Assembly: GCA_016209015.1 (NCBI GenBank)
Contig: JACQWY010000013.1
Span: 1-64,000, forward strand
DNA from: Gammaproteobacteria bacterium
Lineage (GTDB): Bacteria > Pseudomonadota > Gammaproteobacteria > Ga0077536
Direction: 5' to 3'
DNA length: 64,000 nt
In this document: positions 1 through 15,007 of the stretch, one piece after another
How positions within the stretch are numbered: the stretch's first letter is position 1
Layout: the number at the start of each line of letters is the position of its first letter
Notes under the pieces: model-generated
The model's input: the letters and a program-made list of their open reading frames with translations, nothing else
Told to the model about the DNA's origin: nothing
Databases searched by the model: none
Position numbers and translations under genes: made by a program

Positions 1-139
1 GCGCTCAACCGAGCGTCGCGCTTCCCGTCGCCGCCTTCTGATAGCTACACTTATCCACAGTCGCTCTCAGACGAGCGGCTTTCCATCCCTGGTCATTTTT
101 GAATGCGCACGGCTGGTCAGTTTTAAACGCGCAGCAACA
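1..139. mobile_element. End of an IS21-family insertion sequence (partial)
   Basis: Two 22-bp direct repeats starting CTGGTCA lie 24 bp apart (89-110 and 113-134), and the element appears to end at CAACA (139), so read inward it starts TGTTGCTGCG. Spaced CTGGTCA(N)TTTT repeats followed by a TG/CA terminus are characteristic of IS21-family ends. No transposase coding is visible here; the body must lie left of the window. The insertion follows directly on the 13th codon of a short reading frame (140-178) and so breaks the island operon. The family call rests on the terminal repeat pattern alone. Confidence 0.55.
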
Positions 140-178
140 CGTTGCATTAATCCCGGCTTGTACTGCTTCAGCGGTCAT
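140..178 (-). pseudogene. Start of an island gene truncated by the IS21-type end
   Basis: An ATG at 176-178 overlaps the TGA of the primase-like gene (ATGA), the usual sign of translational coupling. Only 13 codons (MTAEAVQAGINAT) remain before the IS terminus; reading continues into IS DNA and closes there at about position 5. The residue stretch is too short to identify. In comparable phage or plasmid operons the gene after a Toprim primase often encodes a helicase, but that is inference only. Confidence 0.35.
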
Positions 179-1032
179 GCTGCGCGGGCCTCGTCGTTCC
201 AGTCCATTCCAGGCGGCGGCGCGGCTAGTGCAACATCGCGTCCGGCGGCAAGCCATCGGGATTCACACTGCGTCGCGGCCTTCATGCCGGCAGCGTCGTT
301 GTCTGCGGCGATGAGTAGCGACTCGATGCCATCGAGCACCGGGAACGTCGCAAGGTTGCCCGCGTCGATGCAGCACCACACGGGCGTATAGGCGTGCGCG
401 GCACTGAGCGCCGTTTCGATGCCCTCGGCTATCGCCAAGCCGTGCGTGACGGCCTCGTCAGGCCAGAGACGGATTACGCCACCCGCTTTGCGGTGCTGGC
501 CAATCAATAGGCGCGGCTTCTTTACCTCGGCTTTGCCTGCGCCGTCCGGCCGCAGGTAGGTCCGATGCAGTGACGTCGGGGTATTAGTGCGCGCGTCGGT
601 GATGAGCCCGATAAGCGCCGGGAACGCTGCTCGCTCGGCAGGATGCCGGCATTCAGGGTGCCAGCGGAGGTCGCCGTCCTCAGGCGGCAGGACGCATCCG
701 CGTCCGTTGAGATATCGCCCGGCCGGGCTCGATGTCGTGATTGGCCTGCACTCCGTCCAGAAGCCGCGCCAGAAGTCCGCTAGCGTGTCGTGCTGGATTC
801 GCGCGGGGCTCGGTGCCTGTGAGCGCTCCCCGTGCGCTACGAGGCCGCTCGTTGCCCCTTTGAAGCCGCACCGGAAGCACTGCCAGACGGCGGCGCCGTC
901 CGCCTCGACGGTAACGGCCAGTGCAGTATCACGGGCGCCCTTGTCGCAGTCGGGGCAGGGGAGGCGTTGCGTCCCGGTGTGGTCGTGGCGCAGCTCGATT
1001 CCGTGCGCGCTGAGTTGTTCGTATAGGGTCAT
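175..1032 (-). CDS. Toprim-domain primase-like protein of a mobile element
   Basis: 285 residues from the ATG at 1032, chosen because GGGAGG lies just upstream. The N-terminus has a zinc-ribbon pattern, C26-P-D-C29 and C52-F-R-C55, as in the zinc-binding region of phage and P4-type primases. The C-terminal half has Toprim signatures: LAIAEGIETALSAAHAY with the catalytic-type Glu, and LLIAADNDAAGMKAA with the D-x-D pair. Known family role: synthesis of RNA primers for replication of a phage, plasmid or integrative element. There is no helicase domain, so the protein is shorter than primase-helicase fusions; the lost downstream gene may have supplied one. The end DWNDEARAA looks natural rather than truncated. 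Confidence 0.75.
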   Translation of the reverse strand: MTLYEQLSAHGIELRHDHTGTQRLPCPDCDKGARDTALAVTVEADGAAVWQCFRCGFKGATSGLVAHGERSQAPSPARIQHDTLADFWRGFWTECRPITTSSPAGRYLNGRGCVLPPEDGDLRWHPECRHPAERAAFPALIGLITDARTNTPTSLHRTYLRPDGAGKAEVKKPRLLIGQHRKAGGVIRLWPDEAVTHGLAIAEGIETALSAAHAYTPVWCCIDAGNLATFPVLDGIESLLIAADNDAAGMKAATQCESRWLAAGRDVALAAPPPGMDWNDEARAA

Positions 1033-1186
1033 GCGCCCCTCCCGTGCTGGTTTCGAGCTCCGTTTGTGGGTACTTCCGTAGGTAGGCACACGGGCATCGC
1101 AGCGCATCCTTGCGCCCTCAACGCATTAGCCGACTGGATCGGCGGACAGGACTTCCGCATGCCGCTCGGATTCGAGGTTCGCGGGT

Positions 1187-1774
1187 TCATACTGCCTGTC
1201 CCGCTAAGATGTTCAGCGCATCACCTAACCGCCGCTCGTTTATCAGGCCCCAGGCTCGCGCGGTAACTTCAAGGCGGCGCGCCGCCTCTGCGACGCGCGC
1301 ACAACCCTGCAAGTCGATGTGGGCCAGGATTGAATCCAGGTCGTCCCGTACGGCACTCATGCGGCCGGCGATTTCTGCGCATCTCTCGGTGTCACTCGGG
1401 AGCGGGTCCGACACAGCTAGCTGATCGATATCGCTCGCCAGGACTTCCAAGCGGCGGCAGTACAGCGCGACGGGTGATGGATTGGATAGCGCCTCCAGCG
1501 CGGCACGTAGCGGCAAATCCGAAACGCGTTGCGCTTCTGGTCCTTCGAGCTTCGGCAACTCGCGGGCAACGCGCATGTACGCCTGCGCCGTGCGCTCGCT
1601 GAACTCGACGTGTGCGGCCAGCCAGGGCAACCACTCGCCGTGCACGATGTTCGCCTTCGCCTCTAGTAGCAGTTCGCCGGCCCGCCTCGCGTGTTCTACC
1701 GCCTTCGAGGCGCAGGCGTGCGCCGCTCTGTGCTCTCGGTTGATGTCGTGGGCTATCGCGACAAGGGTGCTCAT
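1187..1774 (-). CDS. DUF3102-like mobile-element protein
   Basis: 195 residues. The N-terminal third contains a helical stretch followed by GELLLEAKANIVHGEWLPWL and ERTAQAYMRVARELP, which matches the pattern of DUF3102-type phage and plasmid proteins (repeated LLxAK...HGxWxxWL, then TAQxYMR). The second half is helical and unrecognised. AAGGGGG precedes the ATG, and that ATG overlaps the stop of the upstream small ORF (ATGA), so it sits in the AlpA operon. Biochemical function is unknown; a role in element maintenance or replication control is inferred from context. Confidence 0.65.
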   Translation of the reverse strand: MSTLVAIAHDINREHRAAHACASKAVEHARRAGELLLEAKANIVHGEWLPWLAAHVEFSERTAQAYMRVARELPKLEGPEAQRVSDLPLRAALEALSNPSPVALYCRRLEVLASDIDQLAVSDPLPSDTERCAEIAGRMSAVRDDLDSILAHIDLQGCARVAEAARRLEVTARAWGLINERRLGDALNILAGQAV

Positions 1775-2004
1775 TCACACCCCCTTTGCTCACGCTCTCG
1801 CTCACTACGTAAGGCGAAGTACAACGCCTGCCATGAGCGGCGTAGTTCAGGTGATGAATTCACGAGCATTCGCAGGACTTCGCGCTCGCGGATTCGTGAG
1901 TGTCGATGTTTGCGGGGCTGCGTGCGGAGCAGTATGATTCGGCTGCCAAGCTCTGAATCATTGCCAATGTTGCCGCAGCGCCCGCCTAGTGCGGGCGCTT
2001 GCAT
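1771..2004 (-). CDS. Small hypothetical protein between AlpA-like and DUF3102-like genes
   Basis: 77 residues and unrecognised. Supported by its junctions: the ATG at 2002-2004 follows the AlpA-like stop by one base (TGAAATG), and its TGA overlaps the next ATG (ATGA), which fits a real coupled cistron. The C-terminal part (SPELRRSWQALYFALRSERE) is charged and helical; the N-terminal half looks disordered. An internal start at 1869 giving 32 residues is possible. No function is suggested. Confidence 0.45.
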   Translation of the reverse strand: MQAPALGGRCGNIGNDSELGSRIILLRTQPRKHRHSRIREREVLRMLVNSSPELRRSWQALYFALRSEREREQRGCE

Positions 2005-2005
2005 T

Positions 2006-2293
2006 TCAGTTGGTCGCGCGGCGCAATGCAGAAGCAGCGCCCGCCGCGTCTCCGTTATTTGCCCGATCTCGAAGTTGTCGGCTCACGATTTCGCGAACGC
2101 TTTTATCGTCCGCGCCTGCTGCCCGCGCCGCGAGAATTTCGTCAAGCTCGTGGGCGAACATGCCGGATGCTCGACTTCCTATAATCTTGAAGAACGGGGG
2201 AAGCAGGCCGTCCGCGCTTGCTTGGTACATCGCAGTCGTCCCAATGCTTGCGGCTGCCTTAACGTCAGCGGGTCGCAGAATTCGTAGGGTCAT
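2006..2293 (-). CDS. AlpA-family transcriptional regulator
   Basis: 95 residues with strong Shine-Dalgarno GAGGAG. It has the AlpA/excisionase-like winged-helix pattern: ILRPADVKAAASIGTTAMY (recognition helix region), a turn DGLLPPFFKI, then FAHELDEILAARAAG. AlpA-type proteins activate integrase or excision genes of P4-like and CP4-57-like elements. It heads a run of coupled minus-strand genes, and the integrase lies upstream on the same strand. The C-terminal 30 residues are Arg/Ala-rich and not part of the core family. Confidence 0.75.
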   Translation of the reverse strand: MTLRILRPADVKAAASIGTTAMYQASADGLLPPFFKIIGSRASGMFAHELDEILAARAAGADDKSVREIVSRQLRDRANNGDAAGAASALRRATN

Positions 2294-2423
2294 TCGGATC
2301 TCCTCGACTTAGCCGGAGGTCCGCGTGGCGGCTATAGCCGAAACTGACGGACTGTCAGCGAACCTCGGCGCCTATTATCGAAGTCCAGGAATCCGGAAAA
2401 AGAGGCTGAAATTCGGAGCGGAA

Positions 2424-3011
2424 TTATTCTTTAATTTCCGGATTAGCGCGGAAGGCATCTGCCAGGCGTTTCTCTAGGTTCGGTAACTCGTTTGCGATCG
2501 CGGAACGGATTTGGGATGCGCTGTAACCTTGCCTCTGGCAAATCTTAGTAATGAATATGCGCAGCGCTTCTTTATTCTTCCCTCGCCCCGAAAGCCCTTC
2601 TTCCTTCTGTATTCGCTGAACCACCCTAATGAGATTTTGCTGCCTCTCCTTGGTGTGAATAGGAGGGCGGCCAGCCGCCTTCTTCGGCGCAAGCATGTCG
2701 CCGAGTAGCCCGACGTACACAGCCTTGGTTTTCGGTCTGCCGACTGGCCGCACCCCCTCCTCAGAAATTGCAAAGCCGGGAACGTGATCGAGCGCGAGTT
2801 GATAGGCCAGCCGCAACCAGGGATCGGAACGGTCGTCAACGATCTTGTAATGATCCAAAAGCTTGCGCAGCAGGCGGGCGTGCGTCTCATTAAGCCAATC
2901 GTCGATGCTGAAGTCTGGGGCCGGAGAGCGCAGCATTTCCGCCAGAAGCTTGTTACGAGGGATTGGCTTTGCTAGTTCGCCGGTGTACTTGGGCTTGGTT
3001 CTCTTAGCCAT
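2424..3011 (-). CDS. Hypothetical mobile-element protein
   Basis: 195 residues, not recognised. It begins MAKRTKPKYTGELAKPIPRN and is rich in basic residues. The central part (WLRLAYQLALDHVPGF) is helical, and a linker GRPPIHTKERQQNL precedes a C-terminal helical segment. Its base composition is clearly more AT-rich than the chromosome to the right, which supports horizontal acquisition with the integrase next door. It could bind nucleic acid, given the basic N-terminus, but that is a guess. Confidence 0.6.
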   Translation of the reverse strand: MAKRTKPKYTGELAKPIPRNKLLAEMLRSPAPDFSIDDWLNETHARLLRKLLDHYKIVDDRSDPWLRLAYQLALDHVPGFAISEEGVRPVGRPKTKAVYVGLLGDMLAPKKAAGRPPIHTKERQQNLIRVVQRIQKEEGLSGRGKNKEALRIFITKICQRQGYSASQIRSAIANELPNLEKRLADAFRANPEIKE

Positions 3012-3155
3012 TCGCGCATCCTCATGCGCCCTCGAATGGAATCGCGCCGGCCGGCGAGGAAACCGGCTTTTCGGGAGCTACCCTAGGCGCTGGGTAATTA
3101 TCTCTCTGAACGGGTGGGCGGGCGACACCGATTCCATGGGTGCAGTTGTACCCGG

Positions 3156-4406
3156 TTAAGAATTCTTCGCCTTCCCACGAATCGGCGTCACGCTCGCCGG
3201 CTTCTGCTCCTTCGCGCAGTAGTCCGCCCATGCCTGCATAAGCTTCGCGCGCTTCTCTAGCATATCGCCGCGCCGGTAGGCGGCTTCGGCCTTGTCCTTG
3301 ATGACGTGCGCCAGCGCGGCCTCGGCTACTTCGTTCGCAAACGCGGTGCGCTCCGCTGCCCAATCTCTGAACGTGCTACGGAAGCCGTGTACCGTGAGGT
3401 CGTTATGCCCCATGTCGTGCAACAGATTGAGGCAGGCGGCGCCGGTAACGTGCTTGTTCCGGTGGGCGCTCGGAAACACATAATCCCCGGGCTGGCGTTT
3501 CTTCTGTAAGCGCTTCAGGAGCGCCACAGCGGCCGGCGATAGGGGCACACGATGCTCGCGATGCCCTTTCATTCGCGCGGCCGGTACGGTCCACACTGCG
3601 GCATCGAGGTCAATTTCGTCCCATTTCGCCGCGACGGCTTCAGAGATACGCGCCGCAGTTAGAATCGTGAATTCGAGCGCTTCAACGGACATGCCCTTGT
3701 GGCCGCGTAGACGAACCATGAAAGCCGGTGCTTCGGTGTAGGGCAGAGCGGCGTGATGCTTCTGCGGCGCGACCTTCGAGCGCTTCGGTAGCAGCTTGTC
3801 TAGGTGGCCGCGCCAGCGGGCCGGGTTTTCCCCCTGGCGATAGCCTCGCACCGTCGCCCAATCGAGAATTGATTCAATCCGGCCGCGCAGGCGGGTAGCG
3901 GTTTCCGTCTTCACGCGCCACAGCGGTTCGAGCACGGCCATTACGAGCGTGGTATCGACGGCTTGCACGGGCAGGGCGCCAAAAGTGGGGGAGGCATAGG
4001 TGTTGAGCGTGGCAGTCCACTGTGCGGCATGCTTGGCATTCCGCCAGCCGGCCCGATGCGATTCGACATACGCTGTAGCGCATTCATCGAACGTCTTGGC
4101 CTTTGCGCCCTCTATCAACTCCTGGGCGCGCTTAGCCTTCCGCAGCTCGATTGGATCGACGGGGGCGTCCCCCTTCAATAGCTGCCTTTGCGCGTCGCGT
4201 TTGCCTCGTGCTCCCTCTAGGGTCACATCGTGGCACGACCCTAAGCCCATCCAGCGCGGCTTACCGTTGAGCATGTACCGAAAGGCCCACGTCTTGGCGC
4301 CGGTCTTGGTAACTTGTAGATACAGGCCGAGCCCGTCATGGTGAAATCCGGGCTTCTTCATGTGCTCAACGGCTTTCGGGGTTAGCCGGTCGATTACCTT
4401 TGCCAT
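3156..4406 (-). CDS. P4-type tyrosine recombinase (integrase)
   Basis: 416 residues, normal for the P4/CP4-57 integrase group. The N-terminal arm-binding (DUF4102-like) region is seen in GFHHDGLGLYLQVTKTGAKT and the core-binding region around 105-195. Catalytic residues are visible: R253 (AARISEAV), H340 and R343 (LTVHGFRSTFRDWA), H367 (ALAHVIKDK) and nucleophile Y377 (EAAYRRGD). It would catalyse site-specific integration and excision, commonly at tRNA 3' ends. A tRNA-Ser-like 3' end lies about 125-155 bp upstream of the start, which fits an attachment site. The gene looks intact, though the island has lost its left side to an IS. Confidence 0.93.
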   Translation of the reverse strand: MAKVIDRLTPKAVEHMKKPGFHHDGLGLYLQVTKTGAKTWAFRYMLNGKPRWMGLGSCHDVTLEGARGKRDAQRQLLKGDAPVDPIELRKAKRAQELIEGAKAKTFDECATAYVESHRAGWRNAKHAAQWTATLNTYASPTFGALPVQAVDTTLVMAVLEPLWRVKTETATRLRGRIESILDWATVRGYRQGENPARWRGHLDKLLPKRSKVAPQKHHAALPYTEAPAFMVRLRGHKGMSVEALEFTILTAARISEAVAAKWDEIDLDAAVWTVPAARMKGHREHRVPLSPAAVALLKRLQKKRQPGDYVFPSAHRNKHVTGAACLNLLHDMGHNDLTVHGFRSTFRDWAAERTAFANEVAEAALAHVIKDKAEAAYRRGDMLEKRAKLMQAWADYCAKEQKPASVTPIRGKAKNS

Positions 4407-4530
4407 GCTTGCCGTCCATATACGTATCTATCTACAAATTATAGGCGGCTTCTGGCGAATGTAAACGAAAGAAAATGAACCAAAAGCTCTATATATGCTT
4501 GGCGATAATGGACCTTAATGAAGCGTGGCG

Positions 4531-4561
4531 GAAAGGGTTCAGGCGGACGCCCTCTCCGCCA
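4531..4561 (+). other. Possible attachment-site remnant: tRNA-Ser 3' end
   Basis: GAAAGGGTTC at 4531-4540 followed by CCCTCTCCGCCA at 4550-4561 resembles the T-loop start and the acceptor 3' strand of bacterial tRNA-Ser. The bases between do not form a proper T arm and no 5' half is present, so this is not a tRNA gene. Its place just outside the integrase start suits a duplicated att core left by integration at a tRNA-Ser gene. The match is short and could be chance. Confidence 0.35.
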
Positions 4562-4792
4562 TTCGGCCGCCACCGAGCGCATCCCGTCCCGCTTCTTTGT
4601 TGTCGCGTTGCCATTCGGTCTTCGATACCGCCGCGCGAGCGCAGATTCGGATGACGCGCACGACCGTGTGCACTGGACGACGCGGAACCCACGCACGATC
4701 CATCCCACCGACCAGTGACGATCGGCCGGTTTCGGCCGTGACGTCGTCTCTCCTCCCATACTCGATCCTCCTTCACGACCGAAGCGCGACGT

Positions 4793-5270
4793 TCACGCCG
4801 GCCTGAACACCGGCAGGCGCTGACCGGTCGGTTCCGCGACCTCGATCTCCGCCACGAGACGGGGCACGCGCGTACGTGCCGTCGGATGCACGGGATGCGT
4901 GATTTCGGTGTCGGCCGGCCGTGCAGGATCGCGTCCGGATTCAAATTTGCGTGATGCCGGCACGTCATCGCGATTTTCCGCGAAGTCTTCGCTGCGCGTG
5001 ACGTAGAGCTGCATGTGGCGGCGCGCGGCGAGCGCGACCATCTGCGCCGGTGCGAACAGGCCGTAAGGCGCGAGACAGCTTGCCGTGCCGGCGGCACCGG
5101 GCGCGAGCGCGGCCCGACCGGACCGCGGCGTGCCGCGTCCCGGCGCTCGTTCATGGCCCGGAATGCGACGACGGCTTGTGCCTGGCCGGTCGCGACCGTC
5201 ATCGCGGCGAGCAGATCGCGGTCCGGTCGCGCAACAGCGCCATCGAATTGCTCCGGGTACGATCCTGATC
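4793..5270 (-). pseudogene. Degenerate coding remnant, unrecognised
   Basis: Protein-like text appears in two minus-strand frames: DRDLLAAMTVATGQAQAVVA in one, then LAPYGLFAPAQMVALAARRH and ITHPVHPTARTRVPRLVAEI in another, ending at a TGA at 4793-4795. The shift of frame near 5130 and the absence of a start outside the adjoining repeat suggest a frameshifted relic. The wider stretch 4407-5282 holds no convincing intact gene: AT-rich DNA next to the integrase, then GC-rich DNA with only shadow ORFs. I cannot name the ancestral gene. Confidence 0.3.
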
Positions 5271-5282
5271 CGCGGTGTTCCG

Positions 5283-5442
5283 TTAAGGAAGCTCTGAACA
5301 AGTTCAGAGCTTCCGGCGGCACAGGGATGTGCCGCCGTGAACAGTGGCGTAAGCCATTGTTCACGTAAGGTCGGCAAGAACCACGCTTCTTGCCGACCGT
5401 GCTCTGAAAAATCCAGGATGGACTTATTCAGAGCTTCCTTAA
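5283..5442. repeat. 160-bp multi-hairpin element with 16-bp terminal inverted repeats
   Basis: The 16-bp sequence TTAAGGAAGCTCTGAA at 5283-5298 is repeated exactly inverted at 5427-5442. Between them are consecutive stems: 5287-5314 (13-bp arms, 2-nt loop), 5314-5337 (9-bp arms CGGCGGCAC), 5337-5364 (12-bp arms with one G-T pair), 5369-5398 (12-bp perfect arms GGTCGGCAAGAA) and 5401-5434 (8-bp arms GCTCTGAA, small TCCA/TGGA stem inside). Nearly every base is paired. The left terminal repeat can pair with its neighbour or with the far end, so alternative folds exist. It looks like a MITE or REP-cluster-type element; no ORF fits it. Confidence 0.85.
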
Positions 5443-5467
5443 CCGGGGCGTGCCGGCAGGCGCGCGC

Positions 5468-6469
5468 TTAGCTTCCGGGCCACCACTGCGCGACGTTCCA
5501 CGGGCGCCCGAACCCGGCGTCTGCCGTCGCCGGCGAATACGTCGCGAGCGCGTTGAGCTCGCAGTAGGTCAATTCCGCGAGATGGATGGCGCCGTCCGGC
5601 GCCAACATGAAATCGACGCGTACGGCGTGCCGCCCGCGTCCGATCGCTTCGGCTGCGGCGAGCAGCGCAGCGGGACCCGCGGGTCTCGGCACGTCGGGAT
5701 TCGGTGAGCCCTCGAACTGAAAGGGCAGCTTGTGCCAGACACCGGCGCGCAACGCATCGACGTCGTAGTAACTGCGCGTCCGGCGTTTGCTGTCCGGCGG
5801 GTACCGGGTGACGAGCAGATAGGTGGCGCGATCGTTCGCGACGAAGAACTTGAAGTCGTACGGGCAGGCATTCCGATCGCCGAGGTGGCGACAGAGCAGC
5901 ACTTCCCGCGCCGCGGTCGCATACCACCATTCGCCCCAGCGCAGGCCGAAGGGGCGTGCGAGCCAGAGTCCCGCCGCGTGCCCGGCGGCAGCGCGCGCCG
6001 CGGACGAGGGCGGCCAGTCGATTTTCAGGTTCATCTCCGAGCCGAACGCGGCCTTGAGCCAGTAGACGCCGGGCGCGAGCGCGTCGTCCGGCGGCAACGC
6101 GGCCGTCGGCGATGACCAGGCAGTCGGCAGCGGCCGCGCCGCGGCCGCCAGGGCCGCGGGGATCGCCGCGCCGACGCGCAGCTTGTCGGCGAGCGTCGGC
6201 ACTTCGATCGGCATGAAGAATTTCGCGAGATAGAGCTTGTCGGTGAGGCGCTCCGGGCCGTCGAGCGCCGGCACGCGGCCGTGCACGCGCTTGAACCGCC
6301 GCAGCGAGTGGGCGACGACTTCGCGCAGCGCGGGCGCGGCGTAGAAATCGACGCCGCGCTGCGTGCCCGGGGCGGGCGGACGCGCGCGCGCGGCGGCGGC
6401 CCGCTCGATGAGCGCGTCGCGGCAGCGGACGACGTCGTGGTCCCAGATCTGGCGCTGAATTCCGGACAT
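5468..6469 (-). CDS. TupA-like ATP-grasp protein
   Basis: 333 residues. The order of motifs matches TupA-like ATP-grasp proteins: ERLTDKLYLAKFFMPIEVP and TLADKLRV near the N-terminus, YWLKAAFGSEMN (lysine of the ATP site), LRWGEWWYATAAREVLLCR, YDFKFFVANDRATYLLVTRY, and the late acidic metal-binding stretch AVRVDFMLAPDGAIHLAELT. Related proteins ligate carboxylates to amines in cell-surface polymers such as teichuronopeptide or polysaccharide decoration; the substrate here is unknown. No glycosyltransferase neighbours are seen. It lies downstream of kdpE on the same strand with a 230-bp gap, so it is probably a separate unit. Confidence 0.65.
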   Translation of the reverse strand: MSGIQRQIWDHDVVRCRDALIERAAAARARPPAPGTQRGVDFYAAPALREVVAHSLRRFKRVHGRVPALDGPERLTDKLYLAKFFMPIEVPTLADKLRVGAAIPAALAAAARPLPTAWSSPTAALPPDDALAPGVYWLKAAFGSEMNLKIDWPPSSAARAAAGHAAGLWLARPFGLRWGEWWYATAAREVLLCRHLGDRNACPYDFKFFVANDRATYLLVTRYPPDSKRRTRSYYDVDALRAGVWHKLPFQFEGSPNPDVPRPAGPAALLAAAEAIGRGRHAVRVDFMLAPDGAIHLAELTYCELNALATYSPATADAGFGRPWNVAQWWPGS

Positions 6470-6699
6470 CCGGCGCAGGTCTCCGCAGGTGATGCTCGCC
6501 GGGCGAGTGTGGCGGCCGTCTCGAGACGTGTACAGCGCCGCTCGCGTCGCGCGCTGACCGGCCCTGGCACACGGCGCACGCGGGGGAGGGGCGTAAGCTG
6601 TGATCGAACCGCTCTTTCAAGCACACCCCGATTCGTCACGGAGCGGTCCTTTCGCGGGCCCGCGTCCGAATTCCGGCCCGCGCCGTCTGTCCGGGCCCT

Positions 6700-7407
6700 T
6701 CATCCCAGCAGCCGATACCCCACCGCCGTTTCCGTGAGCAGGAAGCGCGGCCGCGCCGGATCCGTTTCGAGCTTGCGCCTCAGGCGTCCCATGTGCACGC
6801 GCAGATAGTGCGTGTCCTCGCCGTGCGTCGGACCCCACACTTCGCGCAGGAGCTGGCGGTGTGTCAGCACGCGCCCCGCGTTCGCGATGAGCACGCAGAG
6901 CAGCCGGTATTCGATGCGCGTGAGATGCACGGCCGCACCGTTCTTCTCGACCGTGCGCGCCGCGAGATCGACGCACACGTCGTCGAAGCGATAGACGCTG
7001 TCCTTCGCACCCGAGCCCTGCGCGCGACGGCGCTCCGCGGCGCGCACGCGGGCGAGCAACTCGCCGACGCCGAAGGGTTTCGTCAGGTAATCGTCGGCGC
7101 CCGCGTCGAGCGCGGCGATTTTGTCGGCTTCCGCGGCCCGCGCCGAGAGCACGATGACCGGCACGGGCGACCAGCCGCGGAACTCGGTGATGAATTCCAC
7201 ACCGTCGCCGTCCGGCAGGCCGAGATCGAGGATCACGAGATCGGGTTGACGGGTCGCGGCCGTGGTCAGGCCCTGCTTGAGGGTGACGGCTTCGAACACG
7301 CGCCAGCCCTCGCTCTCGAGTGCGGATTTCACGAAGCGCCGGATTTGCGCGTCGTCCTCGATGAAGACCACGCTGCGTACACCCGCGACTTCGCTCGCGG
7401 CGCTCAC
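6700..7407 (-). CDS. kdpE: KdpE, potassium-responsive response regulator
   Basis: 235 residues from a GTG at 7405-7407 that overlaps the kdpD stop (GTGA). The OmpR/PhoB-type receiver has phospho-acceptor D61 (LVILDLGLPDGDG) and K110 (DYLTKPFG). The C-terminal winged helix includes HLTRIEYRLLCVLIANAGRV, HYLRVHMGRLRRKLE and ETAVGYRLL. It is phosphorylated by KdpD and activates kdpFABC when potassium is limiting. It ends the kdp operon. The GTG start is preferred over internal options because it gives coupling and full receiver length. Confidence 0.95.
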   Translation of the reverse strand: MSAASEVAGVRSVVFIEDDAQIRRFVKSALESEGWRVFEAVTLKQGLTTAATRQPDLVILDLGLPDGDGVEFITEFRGWSPVPVIVLSARAAEADKIAALDAGADDYLTKPFGVGELLARVRAAERRRAQGSGAKDSVYRFDDVCVDLAARTVEKNGAAVHLTRIEYRLLCVLIANAGRVLTHRQLLREVWGPTHGEDTHYLRVHMGRLRRKLETDPARPRFLLTETAVGYRLLG

Positions 7408-10139
7408 GGCGGCGCCGCGGCCGCCGGCTCGACGCCGTCGTCCTCGGGGGCATCGAGCGCCGCCGGCATCGCTTCGAGCGGCAGGGTGAACGTGAAGCGC
7501 GCGCCGCCCCCCGGCGGATTCGCCGCGACGATGTGCCCGCGATGGGCGGTGACGATCGCACGGCAGATCGCGAGGCCGAGGCCGACGCCCGGCGTCGCCG
7601 ATTCCTTCTCGCCGCGCACGAACTGCTCGAAGATGGCTTCCTCCTGACCGGCCGGTACGCCCGGCCCGTCGTCGCTGACGGTCACGGTGAGCGCGTTGCC
7701 CGCGACTTCCGCCGCGATGCGCACGGTCGCGCCGCGCGGAGTGTATTTTGCGGCATTCTCGAGCAGATTCACGAGTACGCGCTCCACGAGTGCGGCGTCG
7801 AAACGCGCGAACGGCAGATCCGACGGCATCGCGATTTCGATGTGATGGTCCGCGAGCAGCCGCGCCGTCTCGCGCAACGCACTGCCGACGACTTCCTCGA
7901 GCGGCTGCCATTCGAGCCTGAGTTTGACCTGTCCGCTCTGCAGACGCGCCATGTCGAGCATGTTGTTGACGAGCGCGCTCATGTTCATCGCCGAGTCGCG
8001 AATCGCGGTCGCGAGCTCGCGCGTCGCGGCCGGCAGCGTCTCGCCCTGCCGCTGCAACACGTCCGCGAGCCCCACGAGCGCGGCGAGCGGCGTGCGCAGA
8101 TCGTGCGAGAGCGCCGCGAGCAGCGAATTGCGCAAGCGCTCCGATTCGATCTGGATGAGCGCCTGCTGCGCGACCTCGATGTAGTGCACTCGTTCGAGCG
8201 CGATCGCGGTCAGCGTCGCGAACGTATCGAGGAGCTGGCGCTGCTCCGGCAGCAGCAGGAGCTGCTCGCGATGGGCACGGATGGCGAGCACGCCGCGCGT
8301 GCGCATCGGCGCCCTGAGCGGCACGTAGAGGACGTCCGTGCCGGGCAGGGTATCGGTGCCGGCGCCCGCTGCCTGCGCCTTGTCGAACGCCCATTGCGCG
8401 ATGCCCGCGTCGATTGGGAACGGCGCATCCGCGTCGTCGACGACGAGCCGATCGTCGGCATCCGGCAGCACGATGCGGACGTCCGAGCCGAACGTCCGGC
8501 GCAGTGCCGCGTCGCTGATGTCCGTCACCTGCTCGGGCAGGAGCGCGCCGGAGAGCTCGCGCGCGAATTCGTAGAGCGCACGGGCCCGCTCTTCGCGCCG
8601 CGCGGCGACGCGTGCCTGGAAGCGCGCCCCGCCGGCGAGCTGGCCGGTCACGAGCGCGACGATGAGCATCACGGCGAACGTCAGCAGGTATTGCACGTCC
8701 GTCACCGCGAACGACAGCCGCGGCGGCACGAACAGGAAATCGAACAAGGCGACGCTCAGGAACGCCGCGCTCACCGCCGGACCGCGGCCCCATTTCACGC
8801 CGCTCACCACGACGGCGAGCAGGAACAACATGACGATGTTCGCAAGATCGAAATGGTGGCGGAGCGGCGCGGCGACGAGCGCCGTCAGCAGGCACGCGGC
8901 CGCCGCATAGCCGTAACGGCGCATGCGGCGCGCCTTCGCCGGCTCGCCGTCGAGATCGAAGGCCGCGCGCGCTGCCCTGTGTTGATCTCCGCCCTGCGCG
9001 ATGCCGACCTCGAGCACGTCGATGTCGGGCGCTAGCCGGCCGATCTCCGCATGCGTGCGGCGCGCCCACGGCGGACGCCAGCGTTTCGGGGGCCGGCCGA
9101 GCACGAGCTTCGAGAGGTTGTGCTTGCGGCTGTACTCGATGACCGCCTCGACGATCGACGGCGCGGACAGCACGGCCGTCTTCGCGCCAAGTGATTCCGC
9201 CAGCTTGAGGGTCTTCAGGATCCGCTCGCGCTCGATATCGGGCAGACGTTGCAGCGGCGGCGTCTCGACGTAGATCGCATGCCAGGGCACGGCGAGCTGA
9301 TTCGCGAGCCGTGCCGCGCTGCGCGCCACGCCGATGTCCGGTGCCGCCGGCCCGATACACGCGAGCACGGCGGCCTCGGTCTTCCAGACGGGCGAGATCG
9401 CCCGATCGCTGCGATAGGCCTGCACGTCCTCTTCGACGCGATCGGCGGTGCGCCGGAGCGCGATTTCGCGCAGCGCCATGAGGTTCCCGCGCCGGAAGAA
9501 ATTGCTCGCCGCGCGATCCGCCTGCTCCGGTAGATAGACCTTGCCGGCCTCGAGTCGCGCGATGAGCTCCTCGGCCGGGATGTCGACGAGCACGACTTCG
9601 TCCGCATCGTCGAACACCTTGTCGGGCACGGTCTCCCAGACGCGGATGCCGGTGATGCCGCCGACCACGTCGTTCAGGCTCTCCAGATGCTGGACGTTGA
9701 GCGTGGTGAAGACATCGATGCCGACCGACAGCAGCTCGGTGATGTCCTGCCAGCGTTTCGGATGGCGCGAGCCGGGGACGTTCGAATGCGCGAGCTCGTC
9801 GACGAGGACGAGCGCCGGGCGGCGGGCGAGGATGCCGTCGAGGTCGAATTCGCCGAGCGTGCGGTCACGGTAACGGATTTCGCGCAGCGGATGAACTTCG
9901 AGACCGCGCAGCAGCATCGCGGTGTCCGTCCGCCCATGCGTCTCCACGATGCCGACGACGACGTCGCGGCCCCCGGCCGCGAGCTTCTGCGCCTGCACGA
10001 GCATCGCATAAGTCTTGCCGACGCCGGCCGAGGCGCCGAAGTAGATGCGCAGGCGGCCGCGCCCGGCCTGCGCTTCGGCGCGCTGCACGCGCTTCAGGAC
10101 TTCGTCGGCGTCGGGCCGCAGCGTGGGCTCGGCGGGCAT
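7404..10139 (-). CDS. kdpD: KdpD, potassium-sensing histidine kinase
   Basis: 911 residues, the usual size. In order: the KdpD N-terminal domain with Walker A GASAGVGKTY (35-44) and VLVDELAHSNVPGSRHPKRW, a universal-stress-protein-like domain, four membrane helices, a GAF-like segment, HisKA with H679 (ALSHDLRTPLAALVG) and HATPase motifs VNLLENAAKYTP, DDGPGVP and GVGLGLAIC. It sits in the inner membrane and controls KdpE phosphorylation in response to potassium and ionic strength. It starts 3 bp after the kdpC stop, so it is cotranscribed with the pump genes. Confidence 0.97.
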   Translation of the reverse strand: MPAEPTLRPDADEVLKRVQRAEAQAGRGRLRIYFGASAGVGKTYAMLVQAQKLAAGGRDVVVGIVETHGRTDTAMLLRGLEVHPLREIRYRDRTLGEFDLDGILARRPALVLVDELAHSNVPGSRHPKRWQDITELLSVGIDVFTTLNVQHLESLNDVVGGITGIRVWETVPDKVFDDADEVVLVDIPAEELIARLEAGKVYLPEQADRAASNFFRRGNLMALREIALRRTADRVEEDVQAYRSDRAISPVWKTEAAVLACIGPAAPDIGVARSAARLANQLAVPWHAIYVETPPLQRLPDIERERILKTLKLAESLGAKTAVLSAPSIVEAVIEYSRKHNLSKLVLGRPPKRWRPPWARRTHAEIGRLAPDIDVLEVGIAQGGDQHRAARAAFDLDGEPAKARRMRRYGYAAAACLLTALVAAPLRHHFDLANIVMLFLLAVVVSGVKWGRGPAVSAAFLSVALFDFLFVPPRLSFAVTDVQYLLTFAVMLIVALVTGQLAGGARFQARVAARREERARALYEFARELSGALLPEQVTDISDAALRRTFGSDVRIVLPDADDRLVVDDADAPFPIDAGIAQWAFDKAQAAGAGTDTLPGTDVLYVPLRAPMRTRGVLAIRAHREQLLLLPEQRQLLDTFATLTAIALERVHYIEVAQQALIQIESERLRNSLLAALSHDLRTPLAALVGLADVLQRQGETLPAATRELATAIRDSAMNMSALVNNMLDMARLQSGQVKLRLEWQPLEEVVGSALRETARLLADHHIEIAMPSDLPFARFDAALVERVLVNLLENAAKYTPRGATVRIAAEVAGNALTVTVSDDGPGVPAGQEEAIFEQFVRGEKESATPGVGLGLAICRAIVTAHRGHIVAANPPGGGARFTFTLPLEAMPAALDAPEDDGVEPAAAAPP

Positions 10140-10142
10140 GGG

Positions 10143-10715
10143 CTAGTGCGCGGCGTCGAGGGCGAGGTTCAGCTCGAGGACGTTCACGCGCGGTTCTCCG
10201 AACACGCCGAACAGGCGGTGCGCGGTATGCGCACGGACGAGCGTCTCGACGCGTTCCGTGTCGAAGCCGCGTGCCTTCGCGACGCGCGCGAGCTGATAGG
10301 CCGCTGCGGCAGGACTGATGTGCGGATCGAGTCCACTGCCCGAGGCCGTCACGAGCTCGACGGGGATCGCCGCGGCGTTGCCGGGATCCGCGGCGCGCAG
10401 GACCTCGATACGCTGCTTCACGGCCGCGAGCAGCGCGGGATTCAGCGGGCCGAGGTTCGAGCCGCTCGAGGCCGCGGCGTTGTTCGGCAGCGGCGAGGTC
10501 GCGGATGGCCGGCCCCAGAAATAGCCCGGTGAGGTGAAATTCTGGCCGATGAGGCGCGAGCCGATCGGTTTGCCATCGCGCATCACGAGACTCCCCGCCG
10601 CCGCGTCGGCGAAGGCCGCCCTGCCGATCGCGGTGACGAGAAGCGGATAGGCGAGGCCCGTGATGACGCTCAGCACGACGAACAGGGAGACGGCGGGGCG
10701 AATGAGCTTGAGCAT
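10143..10715 (-). CDS. kdpC: KdpC, K+-transporting ATPase subunit C
   Basis: 190 residues with one N-terminal membrane helix ([20 protein letters not shown]), as expected. Family signatures are [20 protein letters not shown], the Ser/Asn-rich [11 protein letters not shown] and the [18 protein letters not shown] motif. KdpC holds KdpA and KdpB together and increases ATP affinity. It lies 27 bp downstream of kdpB and 3 bp upstream of kdpD. Confidence 0.97.
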
Positions 10716-10742
10716 GTTTCTCTCCTCAGGCTGCGGGCGCGA

Positions 10743-12809
10743 TCAGGCCAGGTGGGCCGCGGCGAGCAGCACGTCGATGAGCTTGATGCCGATGAACGGC
10801 ACGATGATGCCTCCGAGGCCGTAAATCAACAGATTCCGCTTCAGGAGCGCGGCCGCGCCGAGCGCGCGATACGCGACGCCGCGGAGTGCGAGCGGAATGA
10901 GCACGACGATGATCAGCGCATTGAAGATCACTGCCGAGAGTATCGCGGACGACGGACTCGCGAGCCCCATCACGTTCAGCGCGTTCAATTGCGGATACGT
11001 CGACGCGAACGCGGCCGGGATGATCGCGAAATATTTCGCGATGTCGTTCGCGATGCTGAACGTGGTGAGCGAGCCGCGGGTGATCAGCATCTGCTTGCCG
11101 ATTTCCACGATCTCGATGAGCTTCGTCGGGTTGGAATCGAGGTCGACCATGTTGCCGGCCTCTTTCGCGGCCTGCGTGCCGGTGTTCATGGCGACCGCGA
11201 CGTCGGCTTGCGCGAGTGCGGGCGCGTCGTTCGTGCCGTCGCCCGTCATCGCGACGAGCCGGCCCTCGCCCTGGTGTCTGCGGATGAGCGAGAGCTTCGC
11301 CTCGGGTGTCGCCTCGGCGAGGAAGTCGTCGACACCGGATTCGGCGGCGATCGCCGCGGCCGTGAGCCGGTTGTCGCCGGTGATCATCACGGTCCGGATG
11401 CCCATCTGACGCAGCTCCGCGAAGCGTTCCTTGATGCCGCCCTTCACGATGTCCTTGAGCTCGATGACGCCGAGCACGCGCGCACTGTCGGCGACGACGA
11501 GCGGCGTGCTGCCGCGGCGCGCGACGTCGTCGACCGCGTGCTGGGCAGAGGCCGGGAAGTCGCCGCCCGAGTCACCGACGAACGTGCGGATGGCGTCCGC
11601 GGCACCCTTGCGGATCCGCCGTGCGCCGAGGTTCACGCCGCTCATCCGGGTGTGCGCGCTGAACGCCACGAACTCGGCGCCGAGCGCCTGCACGTCGCGC
11701 TCGCGGAGCCCGTGACGCTCCTTCGCGAGCACGACGATGCTGCGGCCCTCCGGCGTTTCGTCCGCGAGCGAGGCGAGCTGCGCGCAGTCCGCGAGCTCCG
11801 CTTCCGTGACGCCCGCGACCGGCAGGAAGGCATGCGCCTGCCGGTTGCCGAGCGTGATCGTGCCGGTCTTGTCGAGCAGCAGCACGTCGACGTCGCCGGC
11901 CGCTTCCACCGCGCGGCCCGAGGTCGCGATGACGTTCGCCTGCATCATGCGGCTCATGCCGGCGATGCCGATTGCGGACAGGAGCCCGCCGATCGTCGTC
12001 GGGATGAGGCAGACGAGGAGCGCGATGAGCACCGCGAGCGTCACCGCGGTGCCGGCCTTCGCGGTCGCGACGCTGTAGGCCGAGTAGGGCAGCAGCGTCG
12101 CGGTGACGACGAGGAAGACGATCGTCAGCGCGACGAGCAGGATGGTGAGCGCAATCTCGTTCGGCGTCTTGCGGCGCTTCGCGCTCTCGACCATCGCGAT
12201 CATGCGATCGATGAACGTCTCGCCCGGATTCGCGGTCACCTGAACCACGATCCAGTCCGAAAGCACGCGTGTGCCGCCGGTCACGGCGGAGAAGTCGCCG
12301 CCGGACTCGCGGATGACGGGCGCGGATTCGCCCGTGATCGCGCTCTCGTCGACGGAGGCGACGCCTTCGATGACCTGGCCGTCGGCGGGAATCACGTCGC
12401 CCGCCTCGACGACCACGACGTCGCCCTTGCGCAACTCGTGCGCGGGCACCGTGTACCACTTCGAGCCGCGGTGCGGCTCCCAGAGCTTCTTCGCCCAGGT
12501 GCTCTTCTTCACGCCGCGCAGCGCGTCCGCCTGCGCCTTGCTGCGGCCTTCGGCGAGGGCTTCGGCGAAATTCGCGAACAACACCGTGAACCAGAGCCAC
12601 AGCGCGATGCCGAGGATGAAGCCGGCCGGCGCTTCGCCATGCCCGGCGAGCGCCTCGACGAACAGTCCCGTGGTCACGATGCTGCCGATGTAGACGACGA
12701 ACATCACGGGATTCCGCCATTGCGCGGTCGGGCTCAGCTTGCGGAAGGAATCGAGAACCGCGGGTCGCAGCAGCGCGGCGTCGAACATGCCGAAAGTCTT
12801 GCGGGTCAT
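10743..12809 (-). CDS. kdpB: KdpB, P-type ATPase subunit
   Basis: 688 residues from the ATG at 12807-12809; the open frame extends further upstream into shadow coding of kdpA, so the start was set by family length and by MTRKTFGMF. Visible: actuator motif TGES (159-162), phosphorylation site D313 in [11 protein letters not shown], the hinge [20 protein letters not shown], and four-plus membrane helices. It couples ATP hydrolysis to potassium uptake through KdpA in the inner membrane. It follows kdpA after 38 bp. Confidence 0.97.
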
Positions 12810-12847: not shown

Positions 12848-14644
12848 TCAGGGCGCGGCGGTCATCATCAGGTGCTCGACGATCGGCCCGAGGGCGTCCG
12901 CCGGGAAGTAGTTCAACGCGCCGACGAGCAGCACCGTGCCGATCAGCAGCACGACGAAAAGGGGTCCGTGCGTCGGCATCGTGCCGGCCCCGACGGGTAT
13001 GCGCTTCTTCGCGGCGAGCGAGCCGGCGATGGCGAGAATCGGCACGATCATCGCGAAGCGGCCGAACCACATCGCGATTGCGAGCGTCACGTTGTAGTAC
13101 GGCGTGTTCGCGGACAGGCCGGCGAACGCGCTGCCGTTGTTGTTTCCGGCCGAGGTGTAGGCATAGAGGATTTCCGAGAAGCCGTGCGCGCCGGGATTCA
13201 GCACGCCGGCCCGGCCGGCGTCCGTCGCGACGGCGAGCGCTGCACCCACGAGCACGAGCGCCGGCGTCACCAGGATCGCGATGGAGGTCATCTTGATGTC
13301 GTAGGCCTCGAACTTCTTGCCGAGATATTCCGGCGTGCGACCGATCATGAGGCCGGCGATGAAGACCGCGAGCACGGCGAAGATGAGCATTGTGTAGAGT
13401 CCGGTGCCGACGCCGCCGAAGACGACCTCGCCCAACTGCATCAGGAACAGCGGCACGAGGCCGCCGAGCGGCGTGAAGGAATCGTGCATGCCGTTCACTG
13501 CGCCGCAGGACGCGGACGTCGTGATCGCGGCGAAGAGGCCGGAGTCCGCGATGCCGAAGCGGGCTTCCTTGCCTTCCATGTTGCCGCCCGGCTGAAGGAG
13601 GCTCGCGCTCTGGTCGACGTCCAGCTTCACGAACGCCGGATTGCCGCGCTGCTCGAAATGCACGGCGGCGACCGCCATGACGGCGAATACGATCAGCATC
13701 GCTGCGAACAGCGTCCAGCCCTGGCGCGTATCGCCGACCATGCGGCCGAACGTGTAAGTCAGGCCCGCGCCGATCGCGAAGATGGCGAGCATCTCCACGA
13801 GGTTGGACAGCGGGGTCGGATTCTCGTAGGGATGTGCGGAGTTCGCGTTGAGGAAGCCGCCGCCGTTCGTGCCGACCATCTTGATTGCGAGCTGGGAGGC
13901 GAGCGGACCCCCCGGCAACGTCTGCGTGGCGCTCGCCGCGGGATCGGTGACGGGATTGCCCTGGGCATCCTTCACCGGCTGACCGGCGTCGTCGACCCTG
14001 GGATTCTGGTAGCTCGTCGGCTCGAGTGTCGCCACCTCCTCGTAGGCGTCGAAGTTCTGGATCACGCCCTGCTGCATGCTGACGAGCGCGATCAGGAGCG
14101 AGAGCGGCAACAGCAGGAACAGCGTGGCGCGCGTGAGGTCGAGCCAGAAGTTGCCGATCGTCACCGAGCTGCGGCGCGCGAAACCGCGGACGAGCGCGAT
14201 GGCGACCGCGATGCCGGTCGCGGCGGACAGGAAGTTCTGCACCGCGAGCCCGAGCATCTGGGTGAGATAGCTCATCGTCGTCTCGCCGCCGTAGCCCTGC
14301 CAATTCGTGTTCGTGACGAAACTGACCGCGGTGTCGAACGCGGAGTCGGCGGTGACGTTCGCCATGTTCTGCGGATTGAGGGGCAGGAAGGCCTGCAGAC
14401 GCTGCAAGGCGTAGACGCCGACGGCGCCGAGGAGACTGACGAGCAGCACGGAGAGCGCGTACTCGCGCCAATCCTGCTCGCGTTCGGGATTGCAGCCGCA
14501 GGCACGACACACCGCGCCTTCGATGCGCGTGAGGAACGGCAGCCGGCCTTCCATCACCTGCTCGATGTAGAGACCCATGGGCTTCGTGATCGCGACGACG
14601 AGTGCAACGTAGACACCGATGACGAGCCAGTCGTGCGGAGTCAT
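12848..14644 (-). CDS. kdpA: KdpA, potassium-translocating subunit
   Basis: 598 residues, a superfamily-K+-transporter-type protein with about ten membrane helices. Recognisable stretches are [60 protein letters not shown] and [18 protein letters not shown], the selectivity-filter-bearing repeats. It conducts K+ with high affinity. Its ATG overlaps the kdpF stop (TAATG). Confidence 0.97.
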
Positions 14645-14733
14645 TACAAATCCTCCGGATAGAAGAGCGCGAAGAGGAGATAGCCGACGAGGGCCACAGT
14701 CACGACCGCGGCCAGCGCTTGGACCCAGCTCAA
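14644..14733 (-). CDS. kdpF: KdpF, small membrane subunit
   Basis: 29 residues: a TTG start, then [20 protein letters not shown] and the end ALFYPEDL, a single hydrophobic helix with the typical GYLLFALxxPE tail of KdpF. The TTG overlaps the stop of the preceding 30-residue ORF (TTGA), and its own TAA overlaps the kdpA ATG. KdpF stabilises the KdpABC complex. Too short for most ORF callers; identified by position and sequence pattern. Confidence 0.85.
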
Positions 14734-14822
14734 TTCGGCTTGCCGAGTGCGTGACAGCCGTGGGTCATGCCGATCATCAGCGCGCAGAGGAGAGCGATTG
14801 CGAGGAGATAGACGACGTCCAT
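14730..14822 (-). CDS. 30-residue membrane peptide heading the kdp operon
   Basis: It starts MDVVYLLAIALLCALMIGMT and ends [11 protein letters not shown] single hydrophobic helix preceded by GGGAGG, five bases before the ATG. It overlaps kdpF by four bases (TTGA), so it is the first cistron of the operon. Short hydrophobic ORFs of this kind occur before kdpF in other proteobacteria; no function is established to my knowledge. It could assist Kdp assembly or act as a coupling leader. Confidence 0.65.
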   Translation of the reverse strand: MDVVYLLAIALLCALMIGMTHGCHALGKPN

Positions 14823-15007
14823 GAAACCTCCCTGGGGTTTGCCGGATTCGACGTCAGCATAGGTGGCCCGGCGCGACATGCGAATCAAAACGCGGCACCG
14901 GGATATCAATGAAGCATAAATTTCGTCGCGCAGCAGCCGGCTGTCCGGGACGTGGTGTTATCATCGCGGCGCCGCGGGGGGCGGCAGGATACGGGAGCGT
15001 GGTTCTG
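14823..15007. promoter_or_regulatory. Divergent kdp / kup intergenic region
   Basis: 185 bp between the first kdp cistron (minus) and kup (plus). It is more AT-rich than its surroundings around 14880-14930 and must hold the promoter for the Kdp operon, where KdpE would bind, and possibly that for Kup. No clear -10/-35 pair or KdpE site can be assigned by eye. Two K+ importers of high and moderate affinity sharing one regulatory region is the notable point. Confidence 0.4.

Follow-up and report, generated by a model that had tools for sequence, protein, structure and literature searches.

An IS5-related MITE with a conserved five-hairpin interior and candidate CsrA/RsmA-type loops

In a 64,000-nt stretch of gammaproteobacterial DNA (hereafter, the window), a 160-bp segment bounded by perfect inverted repeats folds into hairpins and encodes no protein. 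This locus raises two questions: what kind of element it is, and why an element without a gene should keep an elaborate interior. A sequence-only reading had proposed a non-autonomous mobile element and had also named clustered REP-type DNA and a structured RNA.

A 152-bp element and its copies

The perfect 16-bp inverted repeats are TTAAGGAAGCTCTGAA (5283–5298) and TTCAGAGCTTCCTTAA (5427–5442). Because four of the 16 repeat bases are the TTAA target duplication, the element proper is the 152 bp at 5287–5438 (5283–5442 with the TTAA copies) and has 12 perfect terminal bases; extended inward, the terminal repeats agree at 92% over 25 nt. Coding capacity is absent, as the frames of at least 70 aa that touch the element merely start or end inside it. 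Its features are as follows.

5283–5286, no strand: left target-site duplication TTAA (sequence; identical 4-bp flanks in 29/36 two-ended copies)
5287–5438, + strand: MITE of 152 bp, with no room for its own gene (covariance-model match, 152.1 bits)
5287–5298, + strand: left terminal inverted repeat GGAAGCTCTGAA (resembles IS5-family ends in relatives)
5287–5314, + strand: hairpin 1, palindrome of the left end (repeat analysis and span-limited folding)
5315–5336, + strand: hairpin 2, stem GGCGGCACA/TGTGCCGCC (folding and model-fitted alignment)
5322–5329, + strand: CAGGGATG (= CANGGANG), candidate CsrA/RsmA-type site at the tip of hairpin 2 (motif printed in the available text of PMC4353343)
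5337–5364, + strand: hairpin 3, loop GTAA; pairing kept, stem sequence varying by lineage (folding and fitted alignment)
5369–5398, + strand: hairpin 4, loop CCACGC; covarying stem (folding and both alignments)
5401–5434, + strand: hairpin 5 (folding and fitted alignment)
5414–5420, + strand: second CsrA/RsmA-like candidate site, CAGGATG in the hairpin 5 tip, one base shorter than CANGGANG
5427–5438, − strand: right terminal inverted repeat (sequence and repeat analysis)
5439–5442, no strand: right target-site duplication TTAA (sequence)

In unrestricted folding of the window copy, the left end pairs with the right and three internal hairpins remain, and folding with the pairing span limited to 42 gives all five local hairpins. 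Sequence and span-limited fold thus agree on a five-hairpin element with perfect 16-bp terminal repeats, and both pairings proposed for its ends, local and mutual, are obtained, depending on the span limit. The five local hairpins stand, but the right one is not the mirror of the left: hairpin 1 has perfect 13-bp arms that take in the entire left end, whereas hairpin 5 has only GCTCTGAA in common with it, contains its own short TCC/GGA stem, and leaves the last four element bases, TTCC, outside. The folding energy lies far below that of dinucleotide shuffles, with a z of −13.3 for both DNA and RNA and none of 200 shuffles as good; these shuffles and the genome-wide copies described below rule out a chance structure or a single-copy sequence.

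The segment had also been placed beside an integrase scar. A tyrosine recombinase gene (Phage_integrase with an arm-binding domain) does lie at window 3156–4406, about 0.9 kb away, but a tRNA search of window 1–12000 found none, and no link between this gene and the element was found.

The source genome (5.7 Mb, 65 contigs) contains many copies. With blastn, dozens of long matches at ≥90% identity were present among the 40 of 132 candidates that were scored; the pattern GCTCTGAAN{1,31}TTCAGAGC hit 113 sites and 0 in the reversed control; and the covariance model gave 130 matches at E ≤ 0.01, some of them antisense or partial echoes of the palindromic ends. When the 87 rows aligned from 110 fetched, partly overlapping loci were mapped back to the contigs, they resolved into 85 distinct places, of which one is a weak antisense echo; the element is therefore not single-copy. 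Both ends are present at 36 places, the left end is missing at 24, the right at 16 and both at 3, and 6 places lie at a contig edge. Identical 4-bp sequences flank 29 of the 36 two-ended copies, and 26 of these 29 conform to YTAR (CTAA 14, TTAA 7, CTAG 3, TTAG 2). The complete genome G159 has 131 model matches at E ≤ 1e-6, many scoring identically, with identical 4-bp flanks in 48 of 53 full copies (from 40 fetched stretches). Among aligned rows from other lineages (mixed sets), 40 of 84 have a duplication of 4 bp or longer. We interpret the identical 4-bp flanks as target-site duplications, indicating that the element has moved as a unit. Plasmid and phage records searched with blastn at 1e-5 gave no match to the element, and neither did a first exact pattern run against the genome contig collection.

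Among left-truncated copies in the source genome, 14 of 24 begin at consensus positions 15–18, the loop of hairpin 1 being at 13–16; L303 of these retains CTAAGGA in front, and L299 and L310 abut another copy. Among right-truncated copies, 11 of 16 stop at 132–140, seven of them at 135–136, the tip of hairpin 5 being at about 129–133. Examples are L316, L318, L321, L319, L313, L320 and L317 (left) and L325, L327, L326, L333, L334 and L328 (right). Many intact ends still abut YTAR. Breaks at the tips of the terminal hairpins could reflect hairpin-specific cleavage or an assembly artefact. Beside its 153-bp element, G159 also contains matches of about 205 bp (e.g. C1:108771–108975 and 142490–142694) and lower-scoring ones of about 150 bp, probably further variants of the element.

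Insertion sequences with similar ends

We scanned 11 loci with transposase relatives. Four have element-type ends, a length of 1.15–1.16 kb and exact 4-bp duplications (TTAG in G008, TTAA in G031, ATTA in G020, CTAA in G061); the left and right ends of these insertion sequences (ISs) agree at 12–14 of 16 bases, and the transposase gene of the G020 IS contains one stop. The remaining seven loci yielded no such end pair in the same scan. A looser scan of 30 PF01609 loci returned three positives, namely the first G008 IS again, a second, frame-broken G008 IS (1191 bp, CTAA duplication), and a frame-broken IS in G057 (1092 bp, unequal flanks TTAA/TTAG). The G008 and G031 transposases carry Pfam DDE_Tnp_1 and DUF772 and are typed as IS5-family transposases (NF033581; 337 and 345 bits; cut-off 140), of the IS5 group.

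Because these IS5-family ISs of relatives share similar ends and 4-bp duplications with the element, the window element is almost certainly one copy of an IS5-related MITE. The earlier proposal of a non-autonomous mobile element is therefore borne out by the copy number, the mostly YTAR 4-bp duplications, and the IS5-family ends in relatives. A transposase with matching ends exists in relatives, but none was found in the source genome, either with the PF01609 profile or with a relative's protein as query. As the assembly consists of 65 contigs, a collapsed transposase repeat could be missing; the transposase has either been lost from this genome or is missing from the assembly. Conversely, the IS carriers G020 and G061 have no five-hairpin element in the samples searched. 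Left and right ends from the same element scarcely exceed those from different elements in likeness (10.2 v 10.0 and 8.0 v 7.1 of 14, same-element v different-element), giving no support for their co-evolution.

MITEs are usually viewed as internally deleted ISs whose interior has no conserved role. The five-hairpin model finds 0 matches in the seven IS loci at E up to 1, indicating that the cassette is no remnant of the IS and that transposition as such needs no cassette. A 48-bp element at L049 1505–1552 (G112:C143), with ends of similar sequence, GGAAGCTCTGAACAAG...CTTATTCAGAGCTTCC, and flanks TTAA/TTAG, lacks the hairpin cassette; ends alone may suffice for its mobility.

Five hairpins and two GGA loops kept across families

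Covariance model R1, built from 26 sequences, matches 75 of 369 class-sampled genomes at E ≤ 1e-4 (56 of 272 genera; 46 families by hand count, a few with weak matches only) and 47 of 398 phylum-sampled genomes, 36 of these 47 belonging to one family of another class (f207); the source genome is counted in both samples. Among the matches listed, carriers of the DNA pattern are Gammaproteobacteria or unclassified Proteobacteria, many from groundwater, and include the Olavius algarvensis Gamma 3 endosymbiont.

Compensatory changes between homologues had been set beforehand as a test, and they are present in both alignments. When 26 elements are aligned by sequence only, the paired fraction of cells is 86.0%, against 76.9 in shuffles and at most 54.9 after sliding; double changes occur in 30 of 59 pairs, a number that none of 500 shuffles reached (mean 18.5), while sliding gave 23 at most. 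One of five covariation measures, further pair types, fails to beat the shuffles (53 of 500). Hairpin 3 is poorly aligned here and pairs in 63.5% of cells, and RNAalifold returns hairpins 1, 2 and 4 only, with double changes in 15 of 29 pairs. In the model-fitted alignment of 56 matches (53 distinct, some genomes entering twice via two collections), 95.0% of cells pair and 53 of 59 pairs contain double changes, in an alignment that leans towards the structure. Folded singly with the span limit, the 26 elements form the same five hairpins by eye, and five hairpins are found in 53 of 56 and 30 of 31 rows of two later sets. Furthermore, the length stays mostly at 147–153 bp across genomes although the stems of hairpins 3 and 4 change in sequence. 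The fold of the five-hairpin cassette thus persists in many families and reaches at least one further class of the phylum, and we have little doubt that the cassette is selected for structure.

In L284 (G417), L288 (G509), L292 (G472) and L289 (G399), the five-hairpin layout stands between different outer ends (e.g. AGCAGCCCGTTGAT), a pattern expected if other transposon ends had captured the cassette or if the ends had diverged together with their transposase. In G054, the unit of hairpins 2–5 recurs in tandem about every 124 bp (L382, at G054 13500–15000; L383, at G054 2568700–2570000), the L382 array lying directly downstream of a tRNA-Ser gene; such arrays multiply GGA hairpins, as in sponge RNAs.

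The loops of hairpins 2 and 5 resemble the site of a known regulator. The RsmA/RsmE motif is printed as A/U-CANGGANG-U/A in the available text of PMC4353343, and the available portions of PMC4383904 and PMC4333381 describe CsrA as a dimer whose sites are GGA hairpins, generally in pairs. Since the search pattern had fixed GGA in hairpin 2, but not in hairpin 5, of the named MAG sequences entering the model, conservation was judged on held-out matches from genomes outside the model; the model itself slightly favours GGA loops. The per-loop counts leave out the 3 of 56 and 1 of 31 rows that lack five hairpins. Hairpin 2 carries GGA at its tip in 51 of 53 elements of the first set and in 24 of 30 held-out ones, and hairpin 5 in 50 of 53 and 26 of 30; GGA is missing from hairpin 2 in 2/53 and 6/30, and from hairpin 5 in 3/53 and 4/30. 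Both loops have GGA in 21 of the 30 held-out elements (hand count). At the tips of hairpins 1, 3 and 4, GGA occurs in 0, 1 and 1 of the 30, and these three tips together have it in 4/159 and 2/90 cases.

The wider context CA(N)GGA(N)G is present in hairpin 2 of 51/53 elements but only 20/30 held-out ones, and in hairpin 5 of 43/53 but only 18/30. When hairpin 2 is centred on GGA (rows outside 140–165 nt also dropped), the order C (50/51), A (50/51), N, GGA, N, G (51/51) emerges, with C in 21/24, A in 23/24 and G in 24/24 held-out rows, while the base before GGA is free (G, U, C or A). At the stem pair beside this loop, A-U predominates in the first set and C-G in the held-out one, indicating that the loop is kept while the stem changes. 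Hairpin 5 mostly reads CAGGATG, one base short of the printed motif, and in the window copy exact CANGGANG occurs in hairpin 2 only. By our reading of the listing, the loop of hairpin 3 is often GNRA-like and that of hairpin 4 often YCRCRY-like.

Readings of the cassette and comparison with known systems

We favour, at a probability of roughly 0.55, a MITE that disseminates a conserved RNA cassette with the capacity to bind CsrA, a reading in which transcription and CsrA binding are inferred. On this reading, an IS5-family transposase would recognise the GGAAGCTCTGAA ends of a MITE of about 152 bp and mobilise it in trans, each insertion duplicating a 4-bp target, usually YTAR. The cassette would most likely work as the + strand RNA of the element: transcripts running through it would fold, and hairpins 2 and 5, which present two CsrA/RsmA-type sites, would bind one CsrA dimer or two, so that a read-through transcript would be expected to bind CsrA/RsmA. 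We put such binding at even odds. Many copies might then lower free CsrA/RsmA by titration. That titration is the reason for the spread of the element is a tentative suggestion, and we hold as equally speculative the wider picture of a transposon family that spreads a CsrA/RsmA decoy RNA through Pseudomonadota, with titration rising with copy number, favouring the element or its host and so preserving the two CsrA sites and the five-hairpin scaffold. The structured RNA of the earlier reading gains support from the conserved, covarying fold, which falls short of proof.

No sigma-70-like promoter or intrinsic terminator was detected in window 5200–5520, and there is no sense preference relative to neighbours, the upstream gene being co-directional in 30 of 53 G159 copies and in 14 of 33 scorable copies (of 36) in the source genome. 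G-U and A-C mismatches are nearly balanced in the unfitted alignment (46 v 38, p 0.45) and unequal in the fitted alignments (85 v 46, p 0.0008; 63 v 39, p 0.02), where fitting favours G-U; a within-genome control gives 17 and 16 types. The source genome has CsrA. In the phylum sample, CsrA is present in 45 of 47 element carriers versus 175 of 351 other genomes, an association confounded by descent because 36 of the 47 carriers are f207; in the class sample, it is present in 67 of 75 carriers versus 245 of 294 others, with no clear association. The class carriers without a CsrA match are G043, G127, G157, G198, G217, G230, G271 and G375; several are incomplete genomes, but completeness reaches 98% in G230 and 95% in G157. 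Genus g132, to which both G157 and G271 belong, has no CsrA-positive genome listed. Five genomes (G506, G331, G280, G249 and G374) have 7–9 CsrA matches each.

The absence of a promoter, of an orientation bias, and of a discriminating CsrA or mismatch signal leaves room for a plain structured MITE in which the hairpins are retained for their role as DNA: as cruciforms or in single strands they may help transposition, shield the ends or attract a host protein, and the GGA loops would then reflect coincidence or a DNA-structure preference. Mobility and target duplications fit this explanation, as do the lack of orientation bias and the near balance of G-U and A-C in the unfitted alignment, and DNA loops of the GNA/GNNA type are stable when closed by C-G. 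However, ISs with similar ends have no such hairpins, and the nearly fixed C, A and G of hairpin 2 around a free pre-GGA base are predicted by the RsmA/CsrA motif and not by the GNA/GNNA rule. We regard the DNA-level explanation as possible but doubtful.

A cis-acting RNA module retained by the host, such as an mRNA stabiliser, a processing site or a CsrA-responsive leader or trailer for a neighbouring gene, would account for the location of the copies. By our own codon-usage caller, the 36 two-ended copies of the source genome are all intergenic, as are the 53 full copies of G159, in stretches that are 71% and 79% called-coding, respectively. Any tolerated insertion would be expected between genes, however, and 6 of the 40 one-ended copies in the source genome lie inside called genes; both orientations and all gene arrangements occur, and the many identical-scoring G159 copies point to recent spread rather than host retention. 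A cis-acting role is accordingly improbable. Least of all do we expect REP/BIME-type palindromic repeats moved by a Y1 (RAYT) transposase. Hairpins, intergenic position and high copy number are reminiscent of them, but a fixed 152-bp unit with five hairpins in fixed order, terminal repeats, 4-bp duplications and a DDE (IS5-family) partner in relatives are not, and the clustered REP-type DNA of the sequence-only reading is therefore unsupported. The MITE with a CsrA-binding RNA cassette remains our preferred reading.

Among the results listed by searches of a mainly non-subscription literature, we found no description of this element or of a CsrA-binding MITE, although one may exist elsewhere, for instance in ISfinder or in subscription journals; element sequences used as a literature text query retrieved seven papers, all on eukaryotes by title. 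Rfam gave no family above threshold for window 4801–6000 and eight loci, Csr/Rsm sRNA families included; the only Csr/Rsm hit, RsmV on the tandem array L383, is at chance level (17.6 bits, gathering 100, E 0.32). The TwoAYGGAY RNA (RF01731) likewise has two GGA hairpins and is proposed to bind CsrA, but is not described as mobile in the available text of PMC4333381, and its model has no match to the element at E up to 1.

The element is known in kind, as an IS5-related MITE; what is new is its deeply conserved structured interior with CsrA-type loops. It shares GGAA-CTCTGA-type ends and 4-bp, mostly YTAR, duplications with IS5-family ISs (NF033581), which differ in their length of about 1.1–1.2 kb, their transposase gene and their lack of the five-hairpin cassette. 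Csr/Rsm sponge RNAs (CsrB, RsmX/Y/Z), as far as the available sources describe them, are similar in having several hairpins with GGA in the loop, usually paired. Sponge RNAs are single genes with promoters and are not known as transposons. The QMITE of Coxiella burnetii is, like the element, short and gene-less, with terminal and direct repeats and a stable fold, and sRNAs from QMITEs are reported; the main text of that review, as available, has 0 occurrences of CsrA (PMC10969869). Unlike QMITE, the present element has the same architecture in many families, its stems covarying and its loops conserved. A transposon-derived regulatory RNA is not new as such: the IS200 5'tnpA sRNA of Salmonella is a precedent, for which its authors, in the available text, count three GGA sites and consider CsrA worth testing (PMC12594629). 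That RNA is part of a transposase transcript from another IS family and, as described there, has no conserved five-hairpin MITE.

In the present element, the interior retains its structure over distances that leave some stems with an entirely different sequence, and two of its loops resemble the binding site of a known regulator. If CsrA binds, a mobile element would act directly on a post-transcriptional regulator that is among the most global in these bacteria, with a dose effect of copy number that can be tested. Dozens of five-hairpin repeats in many genomes of the phylum would then acquire a meaning. If titration also drives the spread, the family would amount to a Csr/Rsm sponge on a mobile element, from which stand-alone sponge RNAs may have arisen.
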